DNA from: Gammaproteobacteria bacterium
Lineage (GTDB): Bacteria; Pseudomonadota; Gammaproteobacteria; Arenicellales; UBA868
Reading direction: 5' to 3'
NCBI GenBank assembly: GCA_014239575.1
Contig: JAAZYQ010000010.1
Coordinates: 1 to 33,759 of the forward strand
Length of the DNA stretch: 33,759 bases
Part shown: in pieces, positions 2,649 through 9,653 of the stretch
Layout: the number at the start of each line of letters is the position of its first letter
Numbering within the stretch: the first letter of the stretch is position 1
Program-made: the position numbers and the translations under genes
Notes under the pieces: model-generated
What the model saw: only the letters and a program-made list of their open reading frames with translations
The model's database searches: none
What the model was told of the DNA's origin: nothing

Positions 2649-2677
2649 TTGACATGTTTTAGGGGTCTGGGTATTAT
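2649..2677 (+). promoter_or_regulatory. Sigma70-type promoter driving an orphan short transcript
   Basis: TTGACA (2649-2654), 17-nt spacer, TATTAT (2672-2677). Predicted TSS around 2684. Confidence 0.75.
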
Positions 2678-2683
2678 GTATAC

Positions 2684-2766
2684 AGAATTTGTGCATTGCA
2701 CGATTCTTTTCTCATATCCTCCTCCTTAGATTAATCCCGTCACACTCTTGTGACGGGATTTTTTTT
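2684..2766 (+). ncRNA. Candidate small regulatory RNA (~83 nt) with anti-Shine-Dalgarno tract
   Basis: Near-consensus promoter directly upstream. 5' stem-loop GAAT-tt-GTGC-att-GCAC-g-ATTC (2685-2706), pyrimidine-rich TCCTCCTCCTT (2717-2727), terminator hairpin plus T-run (2734-2766). No ATG-initiated ORF inside. Confidence 0.65.
2734..2766 (+). terminator. Rho-independent terminator
   Basis: ATCCCGTCAC-actctt-GTGACGGGAT (10-bp perfect stem, 6-nt loop) followed by a T-run. Confidence 0.93.
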
Positions 2767-3127: not shown

Positions 3128-4105
3128 ATGGCAACTTCCCCAATCCTTTTTGTTTTTCCGGGTCAAGGATCACAATATCCAGGCATCGGTAAAGATCTAT
3201 TTGACGCATTCGAGTCGGTACGGCAACTCTATGGCGAGGCCAGCGAGGTCCTAGGTTACGACCTTGCGCAACTATCCTTTGAAGACCCTGAAGGGAAAAT
3301 CAACCTGACCCGCTATACCCAGCCGGTCTTGTTGACACACTCTCTTTCCTGTCTTCAGGCATTCCAGGAAATGACCAACGGCAAAGTTAGCCCAGGTCTA
3401 ACCGCCGGCCATAGCCTGGGAGAGTATTCCGCGCTGGTTGCAGCTGGCGCTTTGGATTTTCCTTCTGCTCTTCAATTAGTAAAAACCAGAGGTCAACTTA
3501 TGGGAGATCTGGGAGATGGCGAGATGGAGGCCCTGCCATTACCCATTGAAAGCGCTCAGGAGTTGGCTGAACAGCATTACTGTGCCGTAGCAGCATGCAA
3601 CCTGCCCGACCAAACCGTTGTTGGGGGGCGCGCCGAGGATTTGGATGCTCTGGTCAATGACCTCCAGGAGCGCTACCCCGGAAAACGCACCGCGCGACTC
3701 AAAACCGAAGGTGCGTTTCACACTTTCTACATGATCGAGGCCGCCCTACAATTCCGCGAAGCTCTGAGTGGTACACCTTTTTCCTCGCCGGCCATCGAAG
3801 TACTCTCCAACAGCTCCGGCGTCTTTCACCGCAAAGACTCAAACAGTATCCGGGCAGGGCTTTTTTCGCAGCTCTTTAACCCGGTGCAGTGGCATGGGAA
3901 TCTCATGCACGCCGCGACCCAAGGTTGCGACACCATTATTGAGTTCGGTGGCGGCATCGGCAAAGGTGAAACAGCCGCCGAGAAAAAACCCAATCTCGCC
4001 AGCATCATCAAGAAGTCGTTTCGCCGCCAGCCAAACCCGCCGCGCTACCTAAGTGTGATCAACCAGGAAACTCTGTCAGAAGCTGCATCAGTCTTTCGGC
4101 CGTAG
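3128..4105 (+). CDS. ACP S-malonyltransferase-like acyltransferase (FabD-like, standalone)
   Basis: FVFPGQGSQYPGIG, nucleophile elbow GHSLGEYSALVAAG, KTRGQLM arginine, AFHTFYM histidine motif. No fab cluster around it. Confidence 0.88.
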   Translation: MATSPILFVFPGQGSQYPGIGKDLFDAFESVRQLYGEASEVLGYDLAQLSFEDPEGKINLTRYTQPVLLTHSLSCLQAFQEMTNGKVSPGLTAGHSLGEYSALVAAGALDFPSALQLVKTRGQLMGDLGDGEMEALPLPIESAQELAEQHYCAVAACNLPDQTVVGGRAEDLDALVNDLQERYPGKRTARLKTEGAFHTFYMIEAALQFREALSGTPFSSPAIEVLSNSSGVFHRKDSNSIRAGLFSQLFNPVQWHGNLMHAATQGCDTIIEFGGGIGKGETAAEKKPNLASIIKKSFRRQPNPPRYLSVINQETLSEAASVFRP

Positions 4106-6377: not shown

Positions 6378-9300
6378 TCACATGCCGCGGCGATATTTTC
6401 CACCCACTTGAAAAAACGTGTCAGTCAGTTGGCCGAGGGAACAGCACCGAGCCGCCTCCATAAGTGGGTAAAAAACATTCTCTCCATGCAAAACAGCGTA
6501 TTTGACGGCGTCAAGTGCCGGGCCGGTCTGGTTTTCATGACGGTGCTTAAAATCGGCAAGTCGGTCCAGCTGGCCCTGTTTTTCCGTTTCGGTGCCTCGA
6601 GCCAACTCGACATCGGCTGATGTGCCAACCGCATCCCTGACAAAAGAGTTAACACCGATAATCGGGTAACTGCCGTCATGTTTGCGGGTTTCATAATACA
6701 AAGACTCTTCTTGTATCTTGCCTCGCTGGTAGCCGGTTTCCATCGCTCCTAAGACCCCGCCGCGCTCTGCCAGACGATCGAACTCTGCGAGTACCGCCTG
6801 CTCAACCAGATCGGTAAGCTCCTCGATGATGAAACTGCCCTGATGGGGGTTTTCGTTGCGTGCCAGCCCCCATTCACGATTGATGATCAACTGTATAGCC
6901 ATCGCCCTTCGCACTGAATCTTCGCTAGGCGTTGTGACTGCCTCATCATGGGCATTGGTATGCAAACTGTTGCAATTGTCGTAAACCGCGATCAAAGCCT
7001 GAAGTGTGGTACGAATATCATTGAAACCCATCTCTTGTGCATGCAAAGAACGACCCGAAGTCTGGATATGGTATTTCAGTCTCTGGCTGCGGGCATTCGC
7101 ACCATAGCGCTCCCGCATGGCAACCGCCCAGACCCGTCGCGCGACGCGCCCCATCACGGTGTACTCGGGGTCCATGCCATTGGAAAAAAAGAAAGACAGG
7201 TTTGGTGCAAAATCATCGATCTCCATACCACGGGCCAGGTAGGATTCCACATAGGTAAAGCCGTTTGCCAGGGTGAGTGCGAGCTGGGTGATCGGATTAG
7301 CACCTGCCTCGGCAATGTGATAGCCGGAGATGGAGACCGAGTAGAACTTACGGACCCGGTTATCAATGAAGTACTGCTGAATATCACCCATCATGCTCAA
7401 ACTGAAATCAGTGGAAAAAAGACAGGTGTTTTGCCCCTGGTCTTCCTTGAGGATATCGGCCTGGACCGTGCCACGGACATTTTCCAGCGTCCACGACCGA
7501 ATTTTGGATAGCGCCTTTGCGTCCGGATCCCGGCCGTGCTCCTCACAAAATCGCTCGACCTGTTGATCAATGGCCGTGTTGAGAAAAAATGCCAGGACAG
7601 TCGGTGCCGGACCGTTAATGGTCATGGATACCGATGTGGTCGGGCTGCAAAGGTCAAAACCCTGATAGAGCGTCCGCATGTCCTCCACGGTCGCGATAGA
7701 AACACCAGAGGTGCCGACCTTGCCGTAGATATCCGGGCGTAGTGCCGGGTCGGATCCATACAGGGTCACTGAATCAAAAGCCGTAGATAGGCGTTTGGCC
7801 TCGGAATTAGCAGACAAAAGCTTGAAACGACGATTGGTGCGCGAGGCGTCACCCTCCCCGGCAAACATACGGGTCGGATCTTCGTTCTCGCGTTTGAAAG
7901 GGAATACCCCTGCGGTAAATGGAAATTCTCCCGGCACGTTTTCCAGCAACTGCCAGATCAAACGATCCCCAGCGTCGGTATATCGAGGCAGGCTGACACG
8001 GGGAATCCGAGTGCCAGACAAAGAGGTATAACTGAGTGTCTGCTCCCGCACTTTACCGCCCACGCGAATACTCAGGCTATCCTGACAGTAGCGTTCAATC
8101 AAAGAATCGAATCCATTGATCTGTTCCAGCATTTCTTCGCCCAGCTTCTCCGCCACATCCTCAGCCAGCGCCTGAAGTGTCTCGGTCGGCTCTTCTGCCG
8201 CTGCAAGCAGATCGATACAACTGTTCAGATGCTGGTATCGACGCGCCAAAACCGCCTGACTTTCCACCGCCTCGTGGTAGAGGCGAACAGCATTGGATAT
8301 CTCAGACAGATAACGCTCACGACCAACGGGCACTACATCGGCCTGCTTCAAATTCAGCTGTGGGTCAGGCAGCAACCCAAGGCTCGGGGTCAGTCCATAC
8401 GCCACCAGAGCGGTATTAAGGGCCCGATACAGTGCGGTGACACCCTGGTCATTAAAATGCGATGCCGTGGTTGTGTATACCGGCATAGCCGTGGGCTCCA
8501 CACTGAAGTCACCCCGGTTCCGCTGTACCTGCTTACGGACGTCTCGCAAAGCGTCCTCGGCACCTTTGCGATCACACTTGTTGATTGCGATGAAATCCGC
8601 ATGATCCAGCATTTCGATCTTCTCAAGCTGTGACGGGGCGCCAAATTCCGGTGTCATGACATACAGTGCACAATCCACCTGAGAGACGATGCCGGCGTCA
8701 CCCTGGCCGATGCCAGGGGTCTCTATGATGATCAGGTCAAAGCCAGCACACTGGCAGGCAGCGAGGATATCCCCGATCTGCGGCGGTATCTCGGCGCTCG
8801 CACCGCGGGTCGCCAGGGAACGAAAAAATACGGCGTCTCCGTCAATCGCATTCATGCGGATACGATCTCCAAGCAAAGCGCCGCCGGTCTTGCGTCGAGT
8901 TGGGTCCACGGCAAGTACTGCCAGGCGCAGGCGATCACCATAATCCATACGCCAGCGCAGAATCAGCTCATCGGTCAATGAAGATTTACCCGAGCCGCCA
9001 GTGCCAGTGATCCCCAAAATCGGTACCCGGCACTCTTCACGAGCCGCACCCGCGCGGACCTGACGCAGAATAAGTTCACTGGCAGTCCCATTTTCGATCT
9101 CGGTAATCAGCCGAGCCAGTGGCCCGCCATCATACCCATCCAGTCCGTCCAGATTCTCTTTACCCTGATCGCCAGGATAAAAATCGGCTTGCGTCATCAT
9201 GTCATCGATCATGCCCTGTAAGCCAAGGCGCTGGCCATCCTCTGGCGAATAGATACGACAGACCCCGTAATCGTGCAGTGCACGGACCTCTTCGGGAACG

Positions 9301-9653
9301 ATCACCCCGCCGCCGCCGCCGAAGACGCGTATATCTCCCCGGCCGCGTTGGCGCAGCATATCGACCATGTAGGAGAAGAACTCACTGTGGCCGCCCTGGT
9401 AGGAACTAACCGCAATGCCCTGCACATCTTCTTCGATAGCCGCATCCACAATTTCCTGGACACTGCGATTGTGGCCAAGGTGAATGACCTCTGCACCAGA
9501 GGCTTGTAGCAAGCGGCGGATGATGTTGATGGAAGCATCATGTCCGTCGAACAAGCTCGCCGCCGTAACAAAACGGATTCGGTAGCCCGGATCCGGGTCG
9601 GATCGGGTTTCTGGACTGAACAGGGGGGGTGCACTCTGACTCATCGCTACCAT
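6378..9653 (-). CDS. icmF: Fused isobutyryl-CoA mutase/GTPase
   Basis: 1091 aa: N-terminal B12-binding domain (DGHDASINIIRRLLQASGAEVIHLGHNRS), MeaB-like GTPase with GTGGSGKSSL Walker A, C-terminal methylmalonyl-CoA-mutase-type barrel (TTSVSMTINGPAP; RVARRVWAVAMRERYGA; QTSGRSLHAQEM). Confidence 0.96.
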   Translation of the reverse strand: MVAMSQSAPPLFSPETRSDPDPGYRIRFVTAASLFDGHDASINIIRRLLQASGAEVIHLGHNRSVQEIVDAAIEEDVQGIAVSSYQGGHSEFFSYMVDMLRQRGRGDIRVFGGGGGVIVPEEVRALHDYGVCRIYSPEDGQRLGLQGMIDDMMTQADFYPGDQGKENLDGLDGYDGGPLARLITEIENGTASELILRQVRAGAAREECRVPILGITGTGGSGKSSLTDELILRWRMDYGDRLRLAVLAVDPTRRKTGGALLGDRIRMNAIDGDAVFFRSLATRGASAEIPPQIGDILAACQCAGFDLIIIETPGIGQGDAGIVSQVDCALYVMTPEFGAPSQLEKIEMLDHADFIAINKCDRKGAEDALRDVRKQVQRNRGDFSVEPTAMPVYTTTASHFNDQGVTALYRALNTALVAYGLTPSLGLLPDPQLNLKQADVVPVGRERYLSEISNAVRLYHEAVESQAVLARRYQHLNSCIDLLAAAEEPTETLQALAEDVAEKLGEEMLEQINGFDSLIERYCQDSLSIRVGGKVREQTLSYTSLSGTRIPRVSLPRYTDAGDRLIWQLLENVPGEFPFTAGVFPFKRENEDPTRMFAGEGDASRTNRRFKLLSANSEAKRLSTAFDSVTLYGSDPALRPDIYGKVGTSGVSIATVEDMRTLYQGFDLCSPTTSVSMTINGPAPTVLAFFLNTAIDQQVERFCEEHGRDPDAKALSKIRSWTLENVRGTVQADILKEDQGQNTCLFSTDFSLSMMGDIQQYFIDNRVRKFYSVSISGYHIAEAGANPITQLALTLANGFTYVESYLARGMEIDDFAPNLSFFFSNGMDPEYTVMGRVARRVWAVAMRERYGANARSQRLKYHIQTSGRSLHAQEMGFNDIRTTLQALIAVYDNCNSLHTNAHDEAVTTPSEDSVRRAMAIQLIINREWGLARNENPHQGSFIIEELTDLVEQAVLAEFDRLAERGGVLGAMETGYQRGKIQEESLYYETRKHDGSYPIIGVNSFVRDAVGTSADVELARGTETEKQGQLDRLADFKHRHENQTGPALDAVKYAVLHGENVFYPLMEAARCCSLGQLTDTFFQVGGKYRRGM

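Follow-up and report, generated by a model that had tools for sequence, protein, structure and literature searches.

The 33,759-nt stretch of DNA analysed here (the window) carries, at positions 2684-2766 of the plus strand, a small-RNA gene of about 83 nt in which a C/U-rich tract forms an unpaired linker. We consider its product likely to be a trans-acting small RNA (sRNA) of the PhaR regulon that blocks selected Shine-Dalgarno (SD) sequences upon PHA accumulation, and as storage polymer fills the cell it would probably silence certain mRNAs at the level of translation. What appears to be new is that the 5' hairpin of the RNA doubles, in the DNA, as a putative operator for the repressor PhaR, which senses PHA granules. 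Our sequence analysis covers gene anatomy, conservation, the predicted exposure of the seed, the identity of the operator by sequence and the presence of PhaR in the genome.

Results

The tract almost certainly belongs to a genuine small-RNA gene. A near-consensus sigma-70 promoter, TTGACA-17-TATTAT (2649-2677, plus strand), matches at 11 of 12 positions and keeps its register in congeners, and an intrinsic terminator with a 12-bp stem followed by T8 (2733-2766, plus strand) shows compensatory stem changes; the 5' end of the RNA was placed from the -10 box and the 3' end from the T-tract. The 5' hairpin (2689-2703, plus strand) sits between the promoter and the U-rich linker, which contains the seed UAUCCUCCUCC (2715-2725, plus strand), a putatively single-stranded anti-SD sequence. 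The RNA folds with a z-score of -7.5 relative to shuffled sequences, the gene reaches 93 bits (E 4e-18) with the covariance model, and in the predicted fold the mean unpaired probability of the tract is 0.99 in this sRNA and 0.83-1.00 across 21 of 21 orthologues. A U8 tail and a U-rich stretch, features relevant to Hfq, are present; a motif search of the partial genome sequence found no Hfq ORF. The divergent gene upstream, of the histidine-phosphatase family (PF00300; 1895-2557, minus strand), is a neighbour only.

The initial annotation had singled out positions 2717-2728, which read TCCTCCTCCTTA, and within them eight nucleotides identical to the 3' tail of 16S rRNA; this octamer, CCTCCTTA, does occupy 2721-2728 (plus strand) exactly. 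Its occurrence alone was rejected as significant, since chance predicts 0.62 copies for the window, and a copy was present in 46 of 100 shuffled sequences. The tract is noteworthy not for the rarity of the octamer but for a setting that goes beyond chance, namely promoter, terminator, fold, exposure and conservation. The proposal of a small RNA with an exposed anti-SD seed was borne out, the tract being both conserved and, by prediction rather than by structure probing, unpaired.

The gene is conserved in marine bacteria of the order Arenicellales: orthologues with strong model scores occur in 18 of the genus's 20 genomes, and each of the three genomes sampled from a genus in another family has one as well. 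Besides the invariant part of the linker, the two halves of the 5' stem (TGC...GCA) and the terminator are conserved. In the orthologue alignment, two pairs of the terminator and two of the 5' stem have changes on both sides, which supports an RNA structure.

The 5' palindrome would tie this RNA to PHA storage, through an identity that the initial annotation missed: in DNA it is a putative PhaR operator, TTTGTGCATTGCACGAT (2688-2704, unstranded; core TGCATTGCA, 2692-2700), and once transcribed these same positions make up the 5' hairpin. We scored sites with a 17-bp operator matrix trained on the pha promoters of other genomes, the organism's own genome being left out. With this matrix the two sites of the sRNA/fabD locus take the top two ranks within the 33.7 kb window, the best being a second putative operator, TTGCTGCAGTGCACTAT (2894-2910, unstranded; 19.5 bits), between the sRNA and a fabD-like gene, followed by the sRNA palindrome at 15.9 bits. 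Because simulated sequence also yielded 9 sites of at least 15.9 bits in 2.5 Mb, it is position, together with conservation in every orthologue, that carries the case for the operator. At the second site, TGC-N3-GCA is kept in nearly all congeners. When 1.34 Mb of the congener G015, also left out of matrix training, was scanned, the best sites were those of phaP (22.8 bits), the sRNA (21.6), an SDR gene (21.2) and phaR (20.2), and every intergenic match above 13.5 bits fell at the pha locus, the sRNA/fabD locus or that one SDR gene. The site in the SDR-family gene promoter (L293:980-996, G015:C79) is the sole intergenic one above 13.5 bits outside the pha and sRNA/fabD loci in this sequence.

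PhaR itself is encoded in the organism's genome (PF07879, 96.6 bits, at G000:C66), as is a complete class III pha locus with phaC, phaE, phaP, phaA, phaB and phaR. The TGC-N3-GCA palindrome recurs in the promoters of its phaP, phaE and phaR genes, as it does in about 16 congeners; in the congeners phaE is preceded by the palindrome and phaP by two copies, and at phaR it comes immediately after the -10 box. In the second family the motif is present in phasin promoters, and no PhaR-type palindromes were found at phaC or phaR. On sequence comparison, the motif at our locus is the same as that of the PhaR sites defined by experiment, CTGCNNNGCAG in Rhodobacter and YGCRNYGCR in S. meliloti (PMC12542648); in the latter species gel shifts show binding of PhaR to the site CAATTGTGCACCGCAGCATTA of the mmgR promoter, and mmgR is repressed by PhaR (PMC12542648). 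A putative operator with a TGC-N3-GCA core and AT-rich arms lies in the promoter region of the sRNA gene, in a genome that encodes PhaR, and we consider it very likely that PhaR controls the sRNA gene. The PhaR profile found no match in three sRNA-bearing congeners (G004, G012 and G013, drafts that are 60-88% complete), and two PhaR-bearing congeners (G007 and G009) gave no strong sRNA match.

The arms of the sRNA palindrome form 6-9 pairs, G-U counted, in all orthologues, whereas the median for pha operators is 3 (p ~2e-10, for sequences that are related). Moreover, the organism's own clade keeps a G-U pair at a position that breaks the symmetry of the DNA, and in the second family the 5' stem is lengthened with different bases. 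These three features suggest that selection acts on the RNA hairpin besides the operator, and the palindrome seems to be doubly used, as a DNA operator and as the 5' hairpin of the RNA. It could be argued instead that this is a constitutive anti-SD sRNA of the RF02278 kind, whose palindrome is a mere RNA hairpin with an accidental likeness to a PhaR operator; the predicted pairing of the hairpin in all orthologues, the covariation of the arms beyond the operator core and the many RF02278-type sRNAs that have no such palindrome are all compatible with this. We regard it as improbable, given that the core scores from 15.9 to 21.6 bits on an independent pha-promoter matrix, that another conserved operator follows 200 bp further downstream, that the position is like that of the phaR operator, just behind the -10 box, and that anti-SD sRNAs of unrelated lineages also have PhaR-type sites.

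The downstream gene encodes a fabD-like malonyl-CoA:ACP acyltransferase (3128-4105, plus strand; PF00698; TIGR00128 at 217 bits, below the cut-off of 261), whose closest solved relatives are DisD and FabD. It adjoins the sRNA or stands about 1 kb off in most orthologous loci, a synteny with which the second operator agrees. The fabD-like gene is a probable member of the PhaR regulon alongside the sRNA, and the locus resembles a small island under PhaR control. A gene for a fused isobutyryl-CoA mutase, IcmF (1804 bits; 6378-9653, minus strand), lies near it. That the fabD-like gene is on the same strand, about 360 bp downstream, in a synteny kept in most orthologous loci, would also suit a 5' leader or attenuator of that gene in place of a trans-acting RNA. 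Such a role is very improbable, however: the terminator is strong and no alternative fold was seen in the folding analysis, the separate PhaR operator before the fabD-like gene suggests that it has its own promoter, the downstream gene is unrelated in G012, an oppositely oriented gene intervenes in the other family, and conservation falls on the seed, not on the spacer.

Within the linker, only TCCTCCTCC is invariant, and the bases that follow it vary (TTA, AAAT, AATT or TATA). Among the first 20 orthologue sequences collected, 19 contain TATCCTCCTCC and the remaining one TTTCCTCCTCC; UCCUCCUCC is invariant among orthologues, whereas UUA, the last three bases of the octamer and the rest of its 16S-tail match, varies. 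Judged by this alignment, conservation concerns a seed complementary to the SD and not a 16S-tail copy, and the 16S mimicry appears to be incidental because UUA is not conserved. The identity pointed out in the initial annotation is hence exact in the organism's own sequence but does not extend beyond CCUCC in orthologues, and the variable UUA argues against competition with 16S rRNA, which had also been put forward, as a selected function.

We think it quite likely that the sRNA acts by SD blocking, as the anti-SD sRNAs NmsR and S17 repress by pairing with ribosome-binding sites (RBSs) (PMC5362039, PMC11722255). A global decoy, a 16S-tail mimic that titrates ribosomes or 16S function as a growth brake, is less probable even than a leader. 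Although CCUCCUUA equals the 16S tail and overexpressed RF02278 relatives inhibit E. coli growth (PMC5688073, PMC11722255), the conserved seed is unlike the 16S tail on the upstream side of CCUCC, UUA varies, and a 16S-like copy would compete for SDs and not pair with the 30S subunit, which is the SD-blocking model anyway. A small peptide encoded on the minus strand is hardly credible, and we rejected this micro-ORF: in the organism's own genome the reverse complement does read as a strong SD (GGAGGAGGATATG), an ATG, 12 codons and a stop, but the ATG and frame are not conserved, several orthologues having none and others being frameshifted, and the T-tract is on the plus strand.

The 11-mer seed occurs in one to three copies per whole genome, the sRNA counted, in nearly all congeners, and no perfect 11-mer target was found in the organism's own genome besides the sRNA itself. 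Target prediction matched the seed AUUCAUAUCCUCCUCC against RBS regions in 1.34 Mb of one congener, G015. The best 75 duplexes include, among the families listed, at least four SBP_bac_5, at least two SBP_bac_8, at least four ABC_tran and at least three BPD_transp_1, and ABC-transport families make up at least 13 of the 75 predicted targets against at least 3 of 75 in a control set ordered by pairing with 16S (Fisher p 0.015). Part of this signal may come from the strong SDs of highly expressed genes. Three periplasmic-binding proteins appeared among the families listed for that control, and random genes gave no family in more than one copy among those listed. On these predictions, ABC-type uptake genes are our best guess for the targets, but the lean towards ABC transporters is no more than suggestive and, in our view, rather less likely than not to be real. 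This lean agrees with the candidate targets of S17 of Bordetella, which include 32 transporter-related genes or operons (PMC11722255), and with S. meliloti, where many transport genes fall upon loss of PhaR (PMC12542648). The pha genes were not supported as conserved strong targets, the phaA duplex being predicted at -13.3 kcal/mol in G015 and at -3.3 kcal/mol in the organism's own genome, and the phaP RBS offers, by eye, only GAGGA/AGGA-type pairing with the seed.

Discussion

In Rfam, the sRNA reaches no family's gathering score. The nearest functional precedents, which the initial annotation missed, are MmgR and the RF02278-type RNAs. MmgR of Sinorhizobium (alpha-r8, RF00519 'suhB') has the same architecture of about 80 nt, with a 5' hairpin, a C/U-rich linker containing CUCC and a terminator, and its promoter has a PhaR (AniA) operator and is PhaR-repressed (PMC12542648, PMC8401924). 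However, the operator here lies inside the predicted transcribed region, unlike that of MmgR; mmgR is also controlled by NtrC; MmgR acts on phasins, whereas phaP is no obvious target here; and the RF00519 match is weak, one orthologue (L020) scoring 28.9 bits where the threshold is 41 and the organism's own RNA not being listed. The toxic sRNAs of Betaproteobacteria in RF02278 (bdhR1, ncS03/05/27/62, and their relative S17) are likewise short RNAs with a CUCCUCC anti-SD sequence, a terminator and RBS pairing, and the candidate targets of S17 are rich in transporters (PMC11722255). Our sRNA scores 31.4 bits with that model, under the gathering threshold of 50. It has no counterpart of the first RF02278 hairpin, which encloses a second CU motif and is left unpaired in the alignment; it has one seed where RF02278 has two, and it adds the 5' operator-hairpin. 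By analogy, the sRNA would work like MmgR, yet it is no scored member of RF00519 or RF02278.

NmsR/RcoF of Neisseria also has a UC-rich single-stranded anti-SD region and represses metabolic mRNAs, but it has two such regions and three stem-loops, and PhaR control is not reported in the available text of that paper (PMC5362039). The likeness to cuckoo RNAs is, as the initial annotation had cautioned, at motif level only. Alpha-r14 (NfeR1) shares the anti-SD-type CCUCCUCC motif, but each of its three hairpins carries CCUCCUCCC (PMC10746234), whereas our sRNA has a single CCUCCUCC in its linker, without the final C, and not in several hairpin loops.

Of the 369 genomes sampled from the class, 103 gave RF02278-type CUCCUCC RNAs at a relaxed threshold, and across the class these RNAs showed no co-occurrence with PhaR beyond chance (p 0.37). 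PhaR-type palindromes lie near the promoter or 5' end of L173 and L187 (G195), L192 (G318), L175 (G215) and L144, the last a betaproteobacterial RF02278 member at 61 bits. Genome G195 thus has two anti-SD sRNA genes with such palindromes (L187 at G195:C114, L173 at G195:C38), and also PhaR and three phasin matches. The organism's own genome has a second anti-SD sRNA, L176 (G000:C329:9171-9229, plus strand), an RF02278 member at 50.1 bits that carries no PhaR-type palindrome; neither does a sibling sRNA of congeners (L060 and L057, with L061 by model score) of the form GCGC...TATCCTCCTCCTA(A/T)(A/G)TATTGACCCCGG-terminator. Twelve RNAs from many gammaproteobacterial families (L178, L181, L183, L184, L186, L189, L193, L194, L196, L200, L202 and L203) have a distinct promoter/5' element in common, TTGACA, then about TATTAGA, then CATACTGATT or CATACGCTGATT, which suggests one separately regulated RF02278-type subfamily below the Rfam threshold. 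Tandem RF02278-type copies 130-220 bp apart were seen at G369:C3:217943-218301, G252:C83:5201-5393, G284:C27:1129-1336 and G390:C3:141779-142057.

The titration of PhaR by PHA granules has been demonstrated in other bacteria. For the sRNA described here, transcription, PhaR binding, the direction of regulation and the targets can, as we infer them, be joined in a simple circuit. In cells without PHA, PhaR bound to the palindrome at about +5 to +20 would block transcription of the sRNA. As PHA accumulates, the granules would titrate PhaR away, and its release would allow the sRNA to be made together with phasin. The exposed UAUCCUCCUCC linker would then pair with the SD regions of selected mRNAs, whose translation would stop. 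The palindrome would serve in the gene as a DNA operator and in the RNA as a stable 5' hairpin.

More tentatively, and with somewhat less than even confidence, we suggest that a circuit of PHA granules, PhaR and an anti-SD sRNA might be widespread in Proteobacteria, such that a full store translationally shuts uptake genes, and that the operator has been co-opted as a stabilising 5' hairpin. Such a reading, about which we are equally reserved, would span the Arenicellales, the family of G195 and G318, the betaproteobacterial RF02278 locus and alphaproteobacterial MmgR, with sRNAs that are unrelated or very distant. An uncharacterised anti-SD sRNA would thereby gain a concrete trigger, PHA granules acting via PhaR, and a testable role. 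The MmgR-type circuit, reported only from rhizobia in the literature that we found, would be extended to marine gammaproteobacteria, and an inducing signal may be suggested for at least some of the 'toxic' RF02278-type sRNAs.
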